Shown piece by piece: positions 622 through 61,214 of a stretch of DNA of 61,323 nt (its first letter is position 1; each line of letters opens with the position of its first letter). The DNA lies in the NCBI GenBank assembly GCA_030693415.1, contig JAUYAR010000029.1:1-61323 (forward strand). Reading direction: 5' to 3'. A program made the position numbers and the translations under genes. Under the pieces are notes generated by a model, which saw nothing but the letters and a program-made list of their open reading frames with translations, was not told the origin of the DNA and made no database searches. The stretch is from Candidatus Cloacimonadaceae bacterium (GTDB lineage Bacteria; Cloacimonadota; Cloacimonadia; Cloacimonadales; Cloacimonadaceae).

Positions 622-1058
622 CAGGAGAGAGATGGGCGTGCAGCACGCAATATGTTGAGGGATAATGATATAGATTGTTTTGCCGAGAGGCATGACATTA
701 CACGGTTATTCATTCGCCGACGGGATAGAGCTCCTTCGTGTCGCCGACGAGGACGTCGGCGTTCCATGATTCGACGTCCCCGTCGGTTCATATTGGCAGT
801 GATCGGATATTTTACGCCGTCAACCAGCATATCATCGACGTTTAAAACTAAAATTCTGCCCTGCGCCAGAACGCGATTCATCTCTTTTGCCACATTGGAC
901 ATCACTTCAAAGTACTTTTCATAGTCCTTGTAGAAACCTTCATAATCAAAAGGTGCATTGAAGTATGGAGGCGAAGTAACAATCAAGTGAATTGATTCGT
1001 CCTTCACTTCCGGCATTGTCTCACAATAACCGATGATTAGTTTATGAAATGTTTTCAT
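621..1058 (-). pseudogene. N4/N6 DNA methyltransferase, truncated by a REP-like repeat
   Basis: Residues 1 to about 88 look like the start of a beta-class DNA methyltransferase. They contain the catalytic motif IV as TSPPY (residues 29-33) and then FDYEGFYKDYEKYF and a VLNVDD strand. After KYPITA the frame runs into translated palindromic repeat (RRGRR, RRRPRRRH) and then unrelated sequence to a stop at 621. In this class the target-recognition region and the SAM-binding FxGxG motif follow motif IV; both are missing, so the product cannot be an active enzyme. No partner restriction gene is visible. The genuine part is about 797-1058. Confidence 0.8.
716..791 (+). repeat. REP-like hairpin pair inside the methyltransferase remnant
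   Basis: This contains the GCCGACGG prefix module, then GCCGACGAGGACGTCGGC (743-760) with the tail GTTCCATG, followed by a partial opposite-facing hairpin, CGACGTCCCCGTCGGTTCAT. It is the same repeat family as at 17753, 22351, 26357, 27633 and 35190. It lies at the exact point where similarity to DNA methyltransferases ends, so it looks like the interrupting insertion. Confidence 0.85.
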
Positions 1059-17752: not shown

Positions 17753-17880
17753 ATGGAATTACCGACGTCCCCGTCGGTTCATGTCCGCAGGATCAGTTAC
17801 AGATTTGTGGATGGATTACGATATGTGCAAATGTGTCAAGCTCAGCGCCACCGTCGCCGACGGGGACGTCGGCGTTCCAT
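17753..17880 (+). repeat. composite REP unit U1
   Basis: It opens ATGGAATT and hairpin ACCGACGTCCCCGTCGGT, continues with one TTCATGTCCGCAGGATC module and a TTACAGATTTGTG module, and closes with hairpin GCCGACGGGGACGTCGGC and GTTCCAT. It is the shortest complete unit, at 128 bp. From here to 18058 I see no gene. Confidence 0.9.
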
Positions 17881-18058
17881 GAGGTGGCGCTGTGGGGAAT
17901 CGGAATTACCCACCCCACTGGGAAGCCGAACTCCGATTCGGCTAAGTCGTAAAAAAAAACTCTCCTCCCCATGCTTGACATTATGTCATCATAGTCCGCA
18001 GTAATGCAAGAACATATCAATACTATACACATATTCATAGCAAGCTTGTCTCTCCTTA

Positions 18059-18116
18059 GCATTACGGAGTCAATACGGACTTAGTCCGTAATGAGTCCGT
18101 ATTGATTCCGTAATGC
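18059..18116. repeat. long nested hairpin, copy 2 (inverted)
   Basis: This is the exact reverse complement of 564-621 over 58 bp. It is followed by AAGGGGGAGATGTAGCG and the modules in the next entry. Confidence 0.92.
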
Positions 18117-18121
18117 TAAGG

Positions 18122-18235
18122 GGGAGATGTAGCGCAGGATGCCGATCCTGCGGGTGAACAGATGAGCGGGTGAACAGGTGAGTGGGTGAACAGGTGAACC
18201 CGTCATTCCAGCGAAGGCTGGAATCCAGTCCTTGA
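18122..18235. repeat. accompanying modules: GCAGGAT palindrome, GTGAAC repeats, ATTCC palindrome
   Basis: In order: GCGCAGGATGCCGATCCTGCG (an inverted repeat), a run of GTGAACAGGTGA-like 8-mers at about 18154-18200, and CATTCCAGCGAAGGCTGGAATC at about 18204-18225, a palindrome resembling the CATTCCCGCGAA repeats found in many bacteria. The first two recur in the same relative order, inverted, at 61060-61134. No gene is seen in 18236-18355. Confidence 0.7.
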
Positions 18236-18355: not shown

Positions 18356-18381
18356 ACCGACGAGGACGTCGGTAATTCCAT
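18356..18381 (-). repeat. solitary REP-like half unit
   Basis: ACCGACGAGGACGTCGGT followed by AATTCCAT: one hairpin of the REP family with no partner, about 120 bp before rpmH. Confidence 0.85.
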
Positions 18382-22350: not shown

Positions 22351-22496
22351 ATGGAATTACCGACGTCCCCGTCGGTTCCTGTCCGCAGGATCGGTTACAG
22401 ATTTGTGCATGGTTTACAGATTTGTGCATGGTTACGAAATTGGTAGATGTGTGATGTTTATCGCTACTGTTGCCGACGGGGACGTCGGCGTTCCAT
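22351..22496 (+). repeat. composite REP unit U2
   Basis: The order is ATGGAA hairpin, one TTCCTGTCCGCAGGATC module, two GGTTACAGATTTGTGCATG modules, a constant block (TTACGAAATTGGTAGATGTG ... ATCGCTACTGT), then the GCCGAC hairpin and TTCCAT. It starts 10 bp after the hydrolase stop. Confidence 0.92.
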
Positions 22497-22545
22497 GAGG
22501 TGGCGTTCCATGAGGTGGCGTTCCATGAGGCGGCGTTCCATGATT

Positions 22546-22709
22546 ATGGAATTACCGACGTCCCCGTCGGTTCTTTTCCGCAGGATGGTTCCTGTCCGCA
22601 GGATCGGTCACAGATTTGTGCATGGGTCACAGATTTGTGCATGGTTTACGTATTGGCAGATGCGTCATGTTGATCGCTACTGTTGCCGACGGGGACGTCG
22701 GCGTTCCAT
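22546..22709 (+). repeat. composite REP unit U3
   Basis: As U2, but with two GTCCGCAGGAT modules and two CACAGATTTGTGCATG modules. Between U2 and U3 (22497-22545) the closing foot GGCGTTCCATGA is repeated three more times in tandem. Confidence 0.92.
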
Positions 22710-23141: not shown

Positions 23142-25370
23142 TTATTTTACAATGACCATTTTCTTGGTCTGGTTCATGGACGGGGTGCTCAGCTTGTAGA
23201 AGTAGATACCGCTACCGCAGGCATTGCCCTTGCTGTCCTTACCATTCCAGTTGATGTTGTGGACACCTTCGTTGACGCTGAAGGTCTTCACGGCTTGGCC
23301 AAGGATGTTATAGATGGTGATGGTTCCGTTTTCGCCGGCTTTGATCTCGACGCCGATATTCACATTGCTGTTTGATTTGAAGGGGTTGGGATAGGCATTG
23401 CGCAGTGTGGTGGCTTCGGGAAGCACGGGCGGAACGCTACCTTCGACGGTGACGCTCACGGGGCCATGGAAGTTGCTGGAGTTATAGTCAACGCTTTCCA
23501 GCCAATACCAGTAGGTGCTGCCGATAGATACTTCGCTATCGGTGATGCTATAGGTTTGGGTGGTGCTGGTGTTGGTGGCGGGCACCATCACGGGAGTGAT
23601 CATCAGCGCGCCGGCTTGGTTGCTGCTCTCGCTGCGATAGACTCTGTAGCCCAGCAGTCCGGTTTCGGAATGGCTGATCCAGGTGAGTTTCACGAAGTAT
23701 TGAGCAGTGAGAGAGGCATAGAAACCGCTCAGCTCGACAGGGAGGGTGGGATCCACAGGACCAAGGATGAACGGCAATAAGGGAATGTCCTTAGCCGCAG
23801 TAATCTCGAAGGTGATCAATCCATCGATGTTGGCCACGGCATGCCATGAGCCGCTCTGGTAGTAGGCGCCCCAGGGTGAGGCGGTGGCGATGGTGATGAC
23901 CCAGGGACCGGCACCATACAGATGAAGAACAAATTCTTCATCCGCGACAAATCCGGGATTGGGGAATCCGGGAATGATACCACCGGGAACGTTGTCGGCA
24001 GGTCCGCCGGTAAGAGTGATAGTGACTGTTAAGAAAGGAGTCGGGACGCCTTCTTCAAAGTCATAATCCCCTGGTGGAACATCAGGTGTTCCGACGAAAT
24101 GTGCCGTATGATTTTCCATGATATTGGTCACAACATATTCCAGGGGTAACCAAGTGTAGTCAACCATCATCACGCTATAAGTGGCACTGGTGCCTTGCAG
24201 CATTGAGAAGGTGTGCGGGGTGAAGTGCTCCGTGGGAATACCATTGACATGAATCATGGCACCAACGGGATTGGAGGTGACAGGCACATTCCAATAAATG
24301 GGCGGTGGCGCATCGCGGTTGATTTCGAAAGCCCAATAGACACAGCCTTGGGCATCGCCTTTGGGGCTGGCTTGGGCACTACGTGTATTGGGAGCGATTC
24401 TGGCAGCGACCGGAGCGAGAATGCGCTTTCCGCCGGGGGCGACAGGATCGGTGATGTAAGGAACTATTTTCCAAACGTAGGTGCCAACGCCAAGGACGGG
24501 GGTCATCCAGCTCAAGGTGCCTGCGGGAAGATTGATCGGCACTGCGGCGTCGTTCCACCACAGTTTGTATCCTTCAGGTGTGGGTCCCGCGTCGGGCATC
24601 CAGGCAAGCATGATTGGGCCGTCCGGAGCATTCCATGCCCAGTTGATCACTGCTCCGGGGAGCGGATACGTGGGAATGGCAGGCGGGGGATTGACGATGG
24701 TGGGTGTTCCCACGAAATGAACATTCGCATTCGCTTGCAGGTTGTTGATCGGGAAAGTCGCAGGATTCCATGTGTAACCAGGCCAAACGACCGAGAATGA
24801 TCCGGTGAAACCTGCAGGGAGGGTAAATACCCAGGGAGTGGAATTTTCGGTAGGGATACCATTAATATGGATCGGCACACCGGCAGGAGCGGATGTGACC
24901 GTGACGGTGTAGTCAGTTGGGATCACTGGAAAGGGAGGGACTCCAACCCATGCATTCGCGTCTATACGGCTCCAGCTAGCCGTACCGGTGGGAACTATAA
25001 CATCATACGTTGCAGTTTCTCCAGTTGGGATATAGGTTAGGCTAAGGATCAGAGTTGATCCAATTGGCCACGCTGCAGGGAAAATAGATTGGTTAACGGA
25101 TGCAACCGCTCTACCCCCTAAACGACATACTCTAATAAGAGAAGCTCCATGAGTCGCATTAGAGCGTGTCTCGTTCTGTGTTACATTGTGGACGCTGTAG
25201 AAATAATCAGTTGTATGGTTCGGAGAATCCGCGGTCACATAATCATAAATTGCTCCCGTATGGGTTGGGTCCAACCTTATCTCTTGCGTCAATGTCCTCG
25301 ATGGTGCTTGAGCATAAGCCCAAACAGTAAATATTAGGGCTAATACAGTGATAAACAATATCTTCTTCAT
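23142..25370 (-). CDS. secreted PEGA/Fn3 protein with type IX-style C-terminal sorting domain
   Basis: 742 aa. A signal peptide of about 20 residues ends in AYAQ. Two related PEGA-like units, near residues 155-225 and 355-425, share (V)HINGIPTE and (N)xHFVGTP. A fibronectin-III-like stretch (about 560-640) precedes the C-terminal domain near 655-742, which holds AYPNPF, YNILGQAVKTF, WNGKDSKGN and GIYFYKL; this domain directs cargo across the outer membrane in type IX systems. The protein is therefore surface-exposed or released. Ligand or enzyme function is not visible. It starts 12 bp after the 212-aa gene. Confidence 0.85.
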   Translation of the reverse strand: MKKILFITVLALIFTVWAYAQAPSRTLTQEIRLDPTHTGAIYDYVTADSPNHTTDYFYSVHNVTQNETRSNATHGASLIRVCRLGGRAVASVNQSIFPAAWPIGSTLILSLTYIPTGETATYDVIVPTGTASWSRIDANAWVGVPPFPVIPTDYTVTVTSAPAGVPIHINGIPTENSTPWVFTLPAGFTGSFSVVWPGYTWNPATFPINNLQANANVHFVGTPTIVNPPPAIPTYPLPGAVINWAWNAPDGPIMLAWMPDAGPTPEGYKLWWNDAAVPINLPAGTLSWMTPVLGVGTYVWKIVPYITDPVAPGGKRILAPVAARIAPNTRSAQASPKGDAQGCVYWAFEINRDAPPPIYWNVPVTSNPVGAMIHVNGIPTEHFTPHTFSMLQGTSATYSVMMVDYTWLPLEYVVTNIMENHTAHFVGTPDVPPGDYDFEEGVPTPFLTVTITLTGGPADNVPGGIIPGFPNPGFVADEEFVLHLYGAGPWVITIATASPWGAYYQSGSWHAVANIDGLITFEITAAKDIPLLPFILGPVDPTLPVELSGFYASLTAQYFVKLTWISHSETGLLGYRVYRSESSNQAGALMITPVMVPATNTSTTQTYSITDSEVSIGSTYWYWLESVDYNSSNFHGPVSVTVEGSVPPVLPEATTLRNAYPNPFKSNSNVNIGVEIKAGENGTITIYNILGQAVKTFSVNEGVHNINWNGKDSKGNACGSGIYFYKLSTPSMNQTKKMVIVK

Positions 25371-26356: not shown

Positions 26357-26832
26357 GTGTCGCCGACGGGATAGGAGCCCGTTCGTGTCGCCGACGGGGA
26401 CGTCGGCGTTCCATGGTCATGGAATTACCGACGTCCCCGTCGGTTCATGTCCGCAGGATCGGTTCATGTCCACAGGATCGGTTTATTTACGCAGGATGGT
26501 TTTACGAAATTGGTGGCTGTGCGATGTTCATCGCTACTGTCGCCGACGGGATAGGAGCCCGTTCGTGTCGCCGACGGGGACGTCGGCGTTCCATGGTCAT
26601 GGAATTACCGACGTCCCCGTCGGTTCTTGTCCGCAGGATCGGTTCATTTACGCAGGATGGTTTTACGAAATTGGTGGCTGTGCGATGTTCATCGCTACTG
26701 TTGCCGACGGGATAGGAGCCCGTTCGTGTCGCCGACGGGGACGTCGGCGTTCCATGGTCATGGAATTACCGACGTCCCCGTCGGTTCATGTCCGCAGGAT
26801 GGTTCATGTCCGCAGGATCGGTTCTTGTCCGC
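26357..26832 (+). repeat. REP array left of the RAYT gene (two complete units and two halves)
   Basis: A leading half ends at 26414, unit U4 spans 26419-26594, unit U5 spans 26599-26755, and a trailing half starts at 26760. The units carry one to three CATGTCCGCAGGATCGG modules, a constant block with TTACGAAATTGGTGGCTGTG, and an extra GGGATAGGAGCCCGTTCGTG module before the closing hairpin. Adjacent units are joined by GGTC. The array stops 25 bp before the RAYT stop codon. No real gene lies in 26188-26857. Confidence 0.93.
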
Positions 26833-26857
26833 ACACTCACCTCTGCACTTTCAGTCA

Positions 26858-27499
26858 TTATTCAATCAACCCAGGATGATAATAACTATTCCTCCACTCA
26901 GACCTATCTTTGACCAAACCTGCTTTGACCGGATTGTCCAGAATATACTCTACTTCATGGTAATAGTGTTTTGGACTACGGATAAACCGGTCAAAATATT
27001 CATGTGCCCATAGCGTTCCTGAATGATTCATCACTTTATTTATCTCTTTAGCAGAATAAGTCTTGATCTTTTTCACTATCTCGCTGGTTTTGTGCCACAT
27101 TCCAGAATTTTCTTTGAGGGGCTTGATCATGAGATGGACATGGTTTGACATCACGCAATATGCGTGCAACTCATATAACCGGTCATTATAATAATGAAAC
27201 GCAGTTGTCAAAATCAGTGCGGTGGACGTTTCAGTCAAAGATATCCCCTTTAGTGAGCACTTTCCAAGGTAAAGATCGATCTCCTGCAATTTGTCACCGA
27301 TTCGGATGAATTGATCAGAATCGTATTGAGCAGAATCAAGGTCATTTCCCCATGATTTCATCATTTCTCGTAGATCTTGATAGTGAAAAAGCAGCGGCTT
27401 TGGTAGTGTGAACGCTAAGCGCCACGTTAGTGAAATGATCTGACCTTGCTTTAGAAAATGAGGCAGTCTGCCTTTGTGATTTTCAATTATATTCGACAT
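26858..27499 (-). CDS. REP-associated tyrosine transposase (RAYT, Y1_Tnp family)
   Basis: RAYTs are single-copy, HUH-type nucleases related to the IS200/IS605 transposase; they bind and cut REP hairpins as single-stranded DNA. Here 213 aa carry the HUH motif in CVMSNHVHLMIKP (His120, His122) and the late helix EYILDNPVKAGLV with the candidate catalytic Tyr185. EYFDRFIRSPKHY (167-179) is also typical. AGAGG lies 6 bp before the ATG. Palindromic arrays lie on both sides, the usual RAYT arrangement, so these are its likely substrates. The protein seems full length. Confidence 0.92.
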   Translation of the reverse strand: MSNIIENHKGRLPHFLKQGQIISLTWRLAFTLPKPLLFHYQDLREMMKSWGNDLDSAQYDSDQFIRIGDKLQEIDLYLGKCSLKGISLTETSTALILTTAFHYYNDRLYELHAYCVMSNHVHLMIKPLKENSGMWHKTSEIVKKIKTYSAKEINKVMNHSGTLWAHEYFDRFIRSPKHYYHEVEYILDNPVKAGLVKDRSEWRNSYYHPGLIE

Positions 27500-27632
27500 T
27501 GAGACCTCTCAGAAGTGTTAGTAGGGGGCAGCATCTGGCCGTCGGGTATATTTGTAAAGATATATTTTGATCAGTCCTCAAGATAATAACATGGTTCTGG
27601 TTATTCGATCTCGGGTTAGAAGCCCGTTCGTG

Positions 27633-27960
27633 TCGCCGACGGGGACGTCGGCGTTCCATGATCATGGAATTACCGACGTCCTCGTCGGTTCATTTCCGCA
27701 GGATCGGTTCATGTCCACAGGATGGTATTACGAAATTGGTAGATGTGTGATGTTCATCGCTACTGTTGCCGACGGGGACGTCGGCGTTCCATGATCATGG
27801 AATTACCGACGTCCTCGTCGGTTCATGTACGCAGGATCGGTTCATTTCCGCAGGATCGGTTCATGTCCACAGGATGGTATTACGAAATTGGTAGATGTGT
27901 GATGTTCATCGCTACTGTTGCCGACGGGGACGTCGGCGTTCCATGGGGTGGCGTTCCATG
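27633..27960 (+). repeat. REP array right of the RAYT gene (two complete units and a half)
   Basis: A leading half ends at 27659; unit U6 spans 27664-27792 and unit U7 spans 27797-27944, followed by an extra GGGTGGCGTTCCATGAG foot. Modules are CATTTCCGCAGGATCGG and CATGTCCACAGGATGG types, then the constant block TTACGAAATTGGTAGATGTG. Units are joined by GATC. Both opening hairpins here carry GTCCTC instead of GTCCCC in the loop. No gene is seen in 27500-28033 otherwise. Confidence 0.93.
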
Positions 27961-27975
27961 AGTTGGAAAAGGCAC

Positions 27976-28033: not shown

Positions 28034-31000
28034 TTATTTGGTCCGCGGAGTAAAGACACCAGCTTCAACAGGTGCAGTATCCCTGCGGGGATTGGCTCTA
28101 AGGTTAAGGTTTTCGACACCATTCATAACGGGAGCGGTTCTAGCCCGGGTGTTATAGGCTATCACTTTATAGAACTTCTTGGCTTCGGGGAAGGTGGGAT
28201 CCAGCCAGGAAAGCTGTGGGGTGCTCCCCAGATAGGTATAAGGACCATAGGGATCGAACGCATAGTGGACATGATAGCCGGTCGCGCCAGTGATCGCATT
28301 CCAGCTTAATCCACCAGTTGTAATTGTTACGACAGGCGGGTCTAAGGGTAGGACTGCGCCCCAGGGAATGGCAAATCCGGTCAGTTCTGAACCGCTTTGG
28401 AAATCACCGATCTTCCAGGCAGAACCATTGACGGGGTAAATCCAATAGAGCGAGCCAATGGTGGTGTATCCTGCAAGATACAAGTGTCCGTTGTTACGGT
28501 CAAAGGCAATATCCTGAGCATAGTTCAGGTTAATGCCAAGCGAGCCAACCATCGTGGCAGCACCGGTGGTGGTGTTGATCGTGTACAGATAACCGGGCGA
28601 GCCAAGGGTCACGCCATAGAGGACGCCATTACCATAGGCAATACCGATCATCGTGCTTGCGCCGATCGTGCCGAGGGGGCCAATTAGAGTGGCTACGCCG
28701 GCGGGACTGATGGTATAGAGATCGCTTGGTGAGCTGGCATAAGTGACGTTATTGACTTGATCATAGGCTACGCCGGTGAGTGAGGCACCCGTTAGTCCGA
28801 GGTTTGTCCCGGATCCGTCAAGGGCGATCTGCCACCAGGCACTTGAAGTAGTGCTATAATCCGCGCCTTTCCAAATGTTAACGCCCATCCAGTCCGCTCC
28901 GGGCATGAAGTTTGTTCCGAAGGGATTGGTTGGATTCAGGTCGGTGATGGTTCCCGGTGTCCTCAGATTAAAGGATGAGGGTCCATCGAGAACTGCTGCC
29001 GGATCGTAAGCGGCATCGGCATAAGCCGGCACATCCAGAGGCAGGCAGATCAATACGCCGTTGAGCACGTCGTTGGCAATGTTTTGATCCGTTCCCAGCA
29101 GAGTGGTGACGGTGACGTTGTAGGCTGTATTTACTATGGGAAGGAAGGACGGGAACGATACCAACTGGCTGAGACCGGCGCCGAGAGCGTTGACATAAAA
29201 CAACTCGGAATATGTGCCGATCTGCATACGGACGTTGAAACTGGCTGCGTTCACACCGTTGTTGATCACCGTGGCTTGGGGGATTCGAGCTTCAACATGG
29301 ACAACTTGAGGCATATTAATGGCTGTGGGGGCTACATCCCAGTTCAAGGGGATAAACAACCGGACATCATCCACATACCAATAGTCATACTGGTAGTGAT
29401 CGCCGTCCATAGTCCAGCCAAGGTATGTCACCGGTTGGGTGAGTCCGCCGACCTGAGCCGTTATCGTTCCGAGATGATTACCGGCGCCGCTGGCATAAGA
29501 CCAGGGTGTGTTGAACCATTCGGTAAGGTTATGGCTATACTGCAGTCTGGCTGTCACGCCTGCTCCCCAGTCATCAAAGAAATGCTTGAATTCGGTTATG
29601 AATGAGCCGATACCGTTGGTATTGATCGGAGGAGAGATCAGACGGCTGATACCGATTCCCGAGGTCCAGGAGTTCTGCATTTCATTGGCAGTTCCTCCGG
29701 CATTTGCAGTGGTAGCCACAGTCCAGCGGTTTGATGTCACGCCGCCGGAGAAGGTCTGAGTCCAGCCTGAGGGGAACGTTGCCGCGGCAAAAGCCTGGGT
29801 ATGCGGAATGGTGATCGAAGGATCGGCTTCGATCCGGAACCAGCGCGGAGGCTCAACAACTGCCGAACCGGCAGTGTTGACGGCTTCGACCGTCCAATAC
29901 CAGCGTTCGCTGTAGTTGAAGGTTATGGGTGCGCCGGGGCCACCGGCATAGGTAGTGGGATTGAGGAAGGTAGCTGTGGTTTCGAAATACACGTCACCAT
30001 AGATCGTGCCTTCGTCCATGGACATATACACGGCATACCAATCCGGTGCTCCACCTGTGAGAGCGGGTGACCAGGTTAGGTTAAACCCGGCTCTGGGCAA
30101 TCCTGTGGCAGCGTCGGCAGGGGTATTGAGGGTTACTGGATTTGGAGGACCGACGGGGGTGGCACGGATCAGGACGTTATCGACCATCAGGTCGTTATCC
30201 GCGTCTTGACCGACAGGACCGGCATCTCCATAAAAGGCAATATACCTGATGCCGGTATAGTCGCTTAGATCGATGGTGATGTGTTCGCCGGCGGGATTGA
30301 TGTTGTTCAGCACAAAGGGGGATCCGGCATTATCCCACAGACGCACCACATTGGCAGGCGTCCAGGATGTGCCGTCGCCGATCAAAACGATGAATTTGTC
30401 ATCGGCGCCAGCCATCTGGGGAGGAGTGCTTATCCCGTTCCAGGCCATGTAGGCGACGTCAAATTCAAGCTGATAACCGGCACCGGGCATTTGGATGGGC
30501 GGAGTGATCAGCCAGCCGTTGATTGTACTATAGATATTGATCTTGGCTGCTTTGTTTAGGGGGCTTACTACATTGCACCAGTCGTCCTGCAACCAGGATC
30601 CGGTTCCGGCAGCGCCAAGAACGGTGGGATCAGCCAGCACGCCGCTGTATTTGTTCCAGTTTATTGGTAGCCAATGCGCGGCAAGCGTTCCGAAATCAAC
30701 CGACCATGGGAAGCTGGAAACCAAGGGATCCGGTATGGTGGTGAAGCTCCAGACCGGGCAACCCACAGCAGGCCCAAATTCATTCCGGGGGACTATCTGC
30801 CAGATATAAGTCGTTGAGTATGCCAATGTTCCCGGAGCATAGGTTGTAGCTGTTTGGTTTATCGGGGTTACCGCTCCATTCCAATATACGTCATAGGAGG
30901 TGGGCATTCCGCCGCCGGACGCCCAGGAAAGAGTGGGAGTGAGGCTGATGTTTATAACACCTGATGGGGTTGGAAACACCAGGTTAGCCGGGTTCGGAGG

Positions 31001-31720
31001 TGTTCCGGCAACCGGCGGAGTCCACGTATAGGTCTGCCCGCTAACAGGAAATACAGTAGCCGTGCAGGTCATGGTGGCGCTATTTGCGGCACCGTTTGCA
31101 GGAGCTGACCAAGACGTGGTGGACGTGAGATTCTTGAAATCGGTGTTGTTTATGCCACGCAGACCTACTTGTACAACAGTGGCGGTGGCGTTATTGGTCA
31201 TTGATCCAAATACTGCGATCGCTTTGTTTGTAGTTTCCTGCAGACGAATCTGGAAATTGAAGTTATCGCCGGTAACATTATATTTCCTGGCATTTTTCCA
31301 TTGGACGACAAATTCGCGGTTAGGTGTGGTGCCTACAGTGTGATAACGGATTTCGCTTGTGGCGTCAATTCCTTGCAGGTCACGCGTAAAGGCGGAAACA
31401 ACATTGGGGCCGGTTGTTGTTGAGCTGATCGGCGTATAGCCGAGAGAAACGGTCCCACCAAGGATTAGATATCCGTTGGGATTGATTGTCAAGCCAGTAT
31501 AGGCTGTTTCATTGAAGGTAAAGGTAAAGGGGATAGTTTCGACAGGGAGAACGACAACAGTGTCGTCCCACGTGCCGGTAGCTGCCACGATACCTTCGGT
31601 GGTCAGCGCATTATAGGGACCCGCTGTGGGAGCGAAGGTATAATCAACCGCAAGCGCCCAAGCGCTGGTAAACAGCCCCAAGCACAGCACCGCTATAACT
31701 ATGATTAATGGTTTCTTCAT
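28034..31720 (-). CDS. giant secreted multidomain protein (Fn3 and choice-of-anchor-J type)
   Basis: 1228 aa with a signal peptide ending SAWA. After a beta-rich N-terminal domain (about 25-240) there are Fn3-like units (PANLVFPTPSGVINISLTPTLSW near 255; PPNPVTLNTPADAATGLPRAG near 540) and two domains with WLPINWNKYSG / TFPSGWTQTFSGG starts, resembling MAM or choice-of-anchor-J modules (near 355-535 and 655-800). A propeller-like YDQVNNVTYASSPSDLYTI region lies near 1010-1130. Unlike its neighbours it has no YPNPF sorting domain; it ends AGVFTPRTK. The function is unknown, probably binding on the cell surface. Confidence 0.75.
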   Translation of the reverse strand: MKKPLIIVIAVLCLGLFTSAWALAVDYTFAPTAGPYNALTTEGIVAATGTWDDTVVVLPVETIPFTFTFNETAYTGLTINPNGYLILGGTVSLGYTPISSTTTGPNVVSAFTRDLQGIDATSEIRYHTVGTTPNREFVVQWKNARKYNVTGDNFNFQIRLQETTNKAIAVFGSMTNNATATVVQVGLRGINNTDFKNLTSTTSWSAPANGAANSATMTCTATVFPVSGQTYTWTPPVAGTPPNPANLVFPTPSGVINISLTPTLSWASGGGMPTSYDVYWNGAVTPINQTATTYAPGTLAYSTTYIWQIVPRNEFGPAVGCPVWSFTTIPDPLVSSFPWSVDFGTLAAHWLPINWNKYSGVLADPTVLGAAGTGSWLQDDWCNVVSPLNKAAKINIYSTINGWLITPPIQMPGAGYQLEFDVAYMAWNGISTPPQMAGADDKFIVLIGDGTSWTPANVVRLWDNAGSPFVLNNINPAGEHITIDLSDYTGIRYIAFYGDAGPVGQDADNDLMVDNVLIRATPVGPPNPVTLNTPADAATGLPRAGFNLTWSPALTGGAPDWYAVYMSMDEGTIYGDVYFETTATFLNPTTYAGGPGAPITFNYSERWYWTVEAVNTAGSAVVEPPRWFRIEADPSITIPHTQAFAAATFPSGWTQTFSGGVTSNRWTVATTANAGGTANEMQNSWTSGIGISRLISPPINTNGIGSFITEFKHFFDDWGAGVTARLQYSHNLTEWFNTPWSYASGAGNHLGTITAQVGGLTQPVTYLGWTMDGDHYQYDYWYVDDVRLFIPLNWDVAPTAINMPQVVHVEARIPQATVINNGVNAASFNVRMQIGTYSELFYVNALGAGLSQLVSFPSFLPIVNTAYNVTVTTLLGTDQNIANDVLNGVLICLPLDVPAYADAAYDPAAVLDGPSSFNLRTPGTITDLNPTNPFGTNFMPGADWMGVNIWKGADYSTTSSAWWQIALDGSGTNLGLTGASLTGVAYDQVNNVTYASSPSDLYTISPAGVATLIGPLGTIGASTMIGIAYGNGVLYGVTLGSPGYLYTINTTTGAATMVGSLGINLNYAQDIAFDRNNGHLYLAGYTTIGSLYWIYPVNGSAWKIGDFQSGSELTGFAIPWGAVLPLDPPVVTITTGGLSWNAITGATGYHVHYAFDPYGPYTYLGSTPQLSWLDPTFPEAKKFYKVIAYNTRARTAPVMNGVENLNLRANPRRDTAPVEAGVFTPRTK

Positions 31721-35189: not shown

Positions 35190-35402
35190 ATGGAACGCCG
35201 ACGTCCCCGTCGGCGACACGAAGCTCTATCCCTATGCGAAAATAGCGATAAACCTGACATGTCCACCAATTTCGTAAATCATCTACAAATCTGTAGTCAA
35301 CCCACAAATCTGTAGTCAACCCACAAATCTGCAGCCGATCCTGCGGACATGAACCGACGGGGACGTCGGTAATTCCATACGCCGACGTCCCAGTCGGCGA
35401 CA
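35190..35402 (-). repeat. composite REP unit U8 with an extra half unit
   Basis: U8 (35190-35377) is inverted relative to the others: read on the minus strand it has one CATGTCCGCAGGATCGG module, three ACAGATTTGTGGGTTGACT-like modules, the constant block, and a module ending GAGCTTCGTGTC before the GCCGAC hairpin. A further hairpin, CGCCGACGTCCCAGTCGGCG, follows at 35379-35402. It starts 9 bp after the nuclease stop. No gene is seen in 35181-35543. Confidence 0.92.
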
Positions 35403-61059: not shown

Positions 61060-61214
61060 CGTTCACCCTCTCACCCGTTCACTTGTTCACTCGTTCACTT
61101 CGCAGGATCTTCGCAGGATCGGCATCCTACGCTACAAAAACCCATCTTGCACCCTAAAAATCCGTTTCTTCCCCCTTTGCATTACGGAATCAATACGGAC
61201 TCATTACGGACTAA
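61060..61214. repeat. composite of GTTCAC repeats, GCAGGAT palindrome and hairpin copy 3
   Basis: In order: GTTCACCCTCTCACCC and further GTTCACT units (about 61060-61100), GCAGGATCGGCATCCTACGC with TACA, a spacer, TTCCCCCTTT and GCATTACGGAATCAATACGG onward (61179-61214). The last part equals the first 36 nt of the hairpin at 564, then breaks off at GGACTAA. It mirrors 18059-18200. No gene lies in 60844-61227. Confidence 0.8.

Follow-up and report, generated by a model that had tools for sequence, protein, structure and literature searches.

The C29 locus lies in a 61,323-nucleotide stretch of DNA (the window) and is very probably a REPtron, in which a single-copy Y1/HUH RAYT is accompanied by cognate REP hairpins in a BIME/REPIN-like arrangement with the tag ATGGA. 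The REPtron and its BIMEs are the known part of this system, and the tag is the new part. The original prediction recognised the repeats but missed their non-canonical tag. It also knew of no description of such composite units for this lineage; this may hold for the lineage, but the REPtron, the BIME and the heterodimeric REP architecture have been well described elsewhere (PMC2817692, PMC3733652, PMC6006769).

The RAYT (TnpA-REP) gene encodes a protein of 213 residues. The HUH motif (Asn119-His120-Val121-His122), Trp164, Asp170, Tyr185, Asn189 and Pro190 are at the expected places, and among 36 homologues all of these residues are invariant except Val121, which is variable. The HUH/Y1 ORF, its two histidines and its tyrosine are exactly where the original prediction had located them. 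Tyr185 belongs to a Y...NP motif (Y185-I-L-D-N-P), as is characteristic of class 2 TnpA-Y1 proteins, so the protein does not fit class 3 TnpA-Y1, in which Y...EQ is required. The sequence matched Pfam Y1_Tnp at 1.9e-7 and NCBIfam REP_Tyr_transpos at 1.5e-21, where the score of 76.8 bits is below the NF047646 cut-off of 80 bits, a naming threshold and not a biological trait. When the AlphaFold model (pLDDT 90.3) was compared with the PDB using Foldseek, 4ER8, the structure of E. coli TnpA-REP in complex with a REP hairpin, was the only match with an E-value below 0.001 (3.1e-8), with TM-scores of 0.48 by query and 0.61 by target, and a profile search again gave 4ER8 as the best sequence match (3.1e-13). 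The model has the TnpA-REP fold. The gene is present in a single copy, and the other two Y1 genes of the genome are distinct from it, the nearest paralogue being 42% identical. An IS200/IS605 insertion sequence was rejected on account of this single copy, since several near-identical transposase copies would be needed.

The hairpins around the gene are of the type CCGACGTCC[CT]CGTCGG. Eleven of them lie inside 26357-27960 (span 26390-27937); ten pair head to head as five complete doublets, and the eleventh is single (Table 1). The original count of four complete units and three halves was therefore incorrect, and an extra ACGGGCTCCTATCCCGT hairpin may have been taken as part of a unit. Across the window, the hairpin GCCGACGGGGACGTCGGC has 23 matches with up to three mismatches, against 0.06 expected, and the five further repeat loci that had been predicted were all recovered. 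A search of Rfam gave no match. As single-stranded DNA, a whole doublet folds into one long hairpin (z of about -7 against shuffles). Inverted REPs on both sides of the gene, together with the low gene copy number, are the organisation of a REPtron. On both sides, short tandem duplications, a 19-mer (TCGGTTCATGTCCGCAGGA) and a 15-mer (GGCGTTCCATGAGGT), begin precisely at the foot of the hairpin, and they may have arisen by cutting and rejoining or by slippage. The tag segment and hairpin foot are also tandemly duplicated at 22487-22543 (GGCGTTCCATGAGGT, 3.8 copies) and 27920-27970, which may reflect processing at the tag.

Table 1. RAYT gene, REP hairpins and associated repeats, in window coordinates.
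Feature	Position	Strand	Remarks
RAYT / TnpA-REP gene	26861..27499	(-)	213 aa; H120, H122, Y185, W164; stop codon 26858-26860
REP hairpin, G-foot subtype	26390..26407	(-)	tag ATGGA on minus strand
REP hairpin, A-foot subtype	26427..26444	(+)	doublet partner of 26390-26407 around TTCCATGGTCATGGAA
REP hairpin, G-foot	26570..26587	(-)	doublet with 26607
REP hairpin, A-foot	26607..26624	(+)	doublet with 26570
REP hairpin, G-foot	26731..26748	(-)	doublet with 26768
REP hairpin, A-foot	26768..26785	(+)	doublet with 26731
REP hairpin, G-foot	27635..27652	(-)	doublet with 27672
REP hairpin, A-foot	27672..27689	(+)	doublet with 27635
REP hairpin, G-foot	27768..27785	(-)	doublet with 27805
REP hairpin, A-foot	27805..27822	(+)	doublet with 27768
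Single REP hairpin, G-foot	27920..27937	(-)	tag segment duplicated (GGCGTTCCATG twice)
Tandem 161-bp unit with doublets	26459..26823	(.)	2.3 copies, 95% matches
19-mer tandem TCGGTTCATGTCCGCAGGA	26440..26501	(.)	starts in 3' foot of a REP
19-mer tandem TCGGTTCATGTCCGCAGGA, further	26620-26662, 26781-26833, 27685-27723, 27818-27875		
Dispersed REP doublet	~743..787	(.)	C29 hairpin family
Dispersed REPs	17761..17873, another at 18356-18373	(.)	C29 hairpin family
Dispersed REP cluster	22359..22702	(.)	C29 hairpin family; four hairpins
Dispersed REP cluster	35197..35398	(.)	C29 hairpin family; three hairpins

In the whole genome (2.81 Mb, 185 contigs), we counted 226 C29-family hairpins with at most one mismatch, and a reversed control pattern gave none. 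The true number may exceed 226, because the assembly probably breaks at the repeats: in the sampled contigs, 45 of 111 hairpins lacked a called ORF on one side, in many cases owing to a nearby contig end. The anatomy of the family was determined from the 111 of the 226 hairpins that were read. The foot pair splits them into two subtypes, A-T (59/111) and G-C (46/111). Orientation alternates in 64 of 66 neighbour pairs, and the doublets with facing tags combine an A and a G subtype in 28 of 30 cases. Based on simple ORF calling, all but one of the hairpins (110/111) are outside called ORFs, which cover 81% of the sequence read, and the 65 hairpins that could be placed lie between convergent (24), co-directional (24) or divergent (17) ORFs. 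The linker modules, namely the 19-mer and ACAGATTTGTGCATGG, are confined to the vicinity of REPs in the sequence read, with 34 of 34 copies of the 19-mer at the sampled loci within 200 bp of a REP. The family is thus of high copy number, dispersed, extragenic and alternating in orientation, as are REPs, BIMEs and REPINs; alternation, heterodimers, linkers and extragenic sites are features of BIMEs and REP dimers (PMC2817692, PMC3733652).

When the hairpins were aligned by subtype, the A type was 5'-ATGGAaTTA-hairpin and the G type 5'-ATGGAaCG-hairpin. Canonical REPs carry GT[AG]G at that 5' position (PMC6006769, PMC8266576). The unpaired 5' tag of the C29 family is instead TGGA, carried by 101 of 107 hairpins, and the family was therefore filed as a variant REP. 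We dropped the idea that the hairpin is of the CGTC type because the conserved flank is ATGGA. We infer that ATGGA acts as the guide. It might instead just be where the spacer of the doublet ends, and owe its conservation to the copying of intact doublets, and the palindrome TTCCATGRTCATGGAA formed by the two tags of each complete doublet would suit such an origin. However, 46 of the 49 hairpins that lack a partner on the tag side retain TGGA. Beyond ATGGA, the upstream sequences of these unpaired hairpins have little in common, so the conserved stretch ends immediately upstream of the tag. In addition, NGGA persists near the foot in members of the same RAYT clade whose stems are quite different. 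As such, a spacer end seems unlikely, and a guide is the reading that we prefer.

To see how tags are distributed over the enzymes, we compared them with a tree of 70 RAYT sequences obtained by a short search. The C29 RAYT groups with L035, L036, L068, L038, L069 and L042 (support 93), whose readable tags are NGGA, and the sister group with the motif W.xFYFDR (L032, L037, L040) has TGGG. NGGA recurs in a second clade (L062, L063, L075, L076, L077, L081), which is separate and well supported, and all other labelled loci have GTA[GCA] or GTGG. The class-level relatives L160 and L163 have, by eye, GTAN. With curated labels for 50 loci, the tag class changes three times on the tree, whereas 300 shuffles needed 13.7 changes on average and never fewer than 11. 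The labelling was done partly by hand from the hairpins, which is a weakness: L056 (wrong hairpin chosen), L097 (too few), L101 (long branch) and L033 (borrowed repeats) were left out, and a second reading assigned GTRG to L091, L096 and L098. Purely automatic labels gave seven changes, where shuffled ones averaged 16.1 and never fell below 11; since the automatic labels point the same way, the agreement between tag and tree holds despite the hand labelling. Among the W-motif positions compared (those of Q95, E100 and H101), no residue separated GTRN from NGGA RAYTs, and Q95, which is conserved in GTAG-type RAYTs, is an alanine (Ala165) in the C29 RAYT. Whether this clade has exchanged GT[AG]G for NGGA (ATGGA here) as the tag that it reads, and so forms a guide class undescribed for class 2 RAYTs in the open-access literature, is in our judgement evenly balanced; such a class would have arisen at least twice in the phylum (the W...YFDR and W.xEYxDxW clades), with TGGG in the sister clade.

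The TnpA-REP proteins of E. coli, S. maltophilia and Marinomonas bind the tagged hairpin as a single strand and cut it at CT or CA, and in Marinomonas Mb the cut dinucleotide tracks changes of the tag, GTGG going with CC and GTAC with GA or GT (PMC8266576). By analogy with the E. coli and S. maltophilia enzymes, the C29 RAYT would bind single-stranded REPs exposed in replication and would read both the 5' tag and the hairpin. Tyr185 would then cut at a dinucleotide picked by pairing with the tag, and rejoining of the strands would copy REP doublets to new intergenic sites and multiply them beside the RAYT gene. If the Marinomonas rule applies to TGGA, the guide-pairing model predicts cleavage at TC and not at CT. 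RAYTs could in that case retarget by altering the guide tag, with cleavage sites changing to match. How RAYTs choose their REPs and stay matched to them in evolution has been studied mainly in GTAG systems. In this phylum, related RAYTs form a natural series in which the tags are GTAG, GTAC, GTAA, TGGG and NGGA and every RAYT has a hairpin of its own; this permits a direct test of the guide-pairing model and of its residue determinants.

The original prediction had proposed that unit numbers be compared genome-wide and in relatives with and without the RAYT, and the outcome favours it: the 226 hairpins here compare with at most nine in any of 124 other species of the phylum, all from genera other than that of the source (G013 nine, G028 four, the other 122 species 0-2; reversed control 0-2), and genomes without a detectable RAYT have 0-16 hairpins of other families. 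Three other REP families likewise peak where the matching RAYT resides (G028 33, G040 26, G013 31). The families of two of these relatives also occur in genomes, 59-93% complete, with no profile-detectable RAYT (G031 16, G034 7, G042 7, G047 4, G043 1). These low counts imply that REPs can outlast the enzyme or arrive without it, and they look like relics or transfers. The 16 hairpins in G031 are of the G028 family, and with this genome 82% complete they are either orphan REPs or a sign of a missing gene. Persistence of REPs in such relatives is what would be expected had the RAYT been domesticated and put to use by the host, for example in single-strand processing or in the control of genes, with spreading ceased and the copies left as relics. 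The single copy and intact catalytic residues fit this equally, and a domesticated role has been suggested for RAYTs as a group (PMC8266576). It is nonetheless improbable here as an account of the C29 family, given that 44 of 75 seventeen-base hits to the hairpin core are exact and that the 161-bp tandem units beside the gene are so alike, which suggests fairly recent multiplication.

Counting the source genome, a homologue of the RAYT was found at an E-value of 1e-5 in 44 of 80 genomes, and 72 RAYT loci were gathered. The same hairpin occurred on both sides of 48 of the 59 non-HYH RAYTs with loci long enough to test, where first-order Markov shuffles gave an expectation of 0.00, and the stem sequences vary from genome to genome. 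The association between RAYT and hairpin is therefore systematic and no accident of the C29 locus, which bears out the original view that this RAYT is flanked by its probable substrates; on that view, the protein would also mobilise or maintain the repeats. HYH-type RAYTs had hairpins on both sides at only one of seven loci, in agreement with the REP-less subclasses (PMC6006769).

Another enzyme might have moved the C29-family repeats, for example the third Y1 gene of the genome, an HYH-type paralogue on contig C71 (L033, G000:C71, ~1332-1944). Three C29-family hairpins are found downstream of this gene, but on that side only, and it has no hairpins of its own, as is usual for HYH-type RAYTs of the order. 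The second RAYT, on contig C45 (42% identity), has its own, different hairpin family GTGGGGAATTCCGATTCCCCAC with 32 copies. Movement by another enzyme of the genome thus seems very unlikely, and the RAYT between the arrays is the preferred candidate. That the hairpins are ordinary terminators, mRNA-stabilising elements or protein-binding sites, with the RAYT a bystander in a repeat-rich spot, would suit their extragenic position and the many convergent or co-directional settings, but it is highly improbable given the 17 hairpins between divergent ORFs, the absence of a T-run after the hairpins, the conservation of a tag outside the hairpin, and arrays that flank RAYT genes across the order.

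Among known systems, the E. coli REPtron (TnpA-REP/RAYT with Y and Z2 REPs in BIME-2; 4ER8) shares with the C29 locus the HUH/Y1 fold, a single-copy gene between alternating REPs, dispersed extragenic copies and heterodimeric doublets. It differs in the tag (GTAG, against ATGGA here), in the hairpin, which in the C29 family has a perfect 7-8 bp stem and a TCCC/TCCT loop without a bulge, and in the protein, which has 165 residues and Gln95 where the C29 RAYT has 213 residues and Ala165. In TnpA-Y1 subclass 2.7 (Quentin et al. 2018, PMC6006769), NHVH, YI[LR]xNP and the median length of 213 residues match the C29 RAYT by eye (motifs only), whereas this subclass has WQ and canonical GT[AG]G REPs in place of WA and TGGA. 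The hairpins beside class 3 and subclass 2.6 genes likewise lack GT[AG]G (PMC6006769), and the CGGA variants of the C29 clade (L036, L068) are similar to the CnGA foot of class 3. Neither fits the C29 RAYT, as class 3 has Y...EQ in place of Y...NP, and subclass 2.6 has YIH[QN]NP and weak atypical hairpins (PMC6006769). The CGTC-tagged REPs (PMC3733652) are likewise short perfect hairpins arranged as head-to-head heterodimers, but their tag is CGTC and no transposase was found for them, while the C29 family has TGGA and the gene is present. We observed CGTC-tagged hairpins (CGTCATTCCAGCGAAGGCTGGAA), of the REP class said to have no transposase, at ~18200 in the window and at L032:366-383, within ~600 bp of the C45 RAYT.

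The window also contains a second repeat family at 549-634, 18049-18130 and ~61165-61212, which is a nearly perfect palindrome of ~80 bp on CATTACGGACT/CAATACGGACT. The first two copies are 96% identical and in opposite orientation, and the third is apparently a half; the family looks like a small MITE. On either side of the locus, the large ORFs at 23142-25370 and 28034-31720 resemble, by eye, secreted proteins, and the former ends in a C-terminal YPNPF...GIYFYKL-type domain that is reminiscent, again by eye, of type IX secretion sorting.
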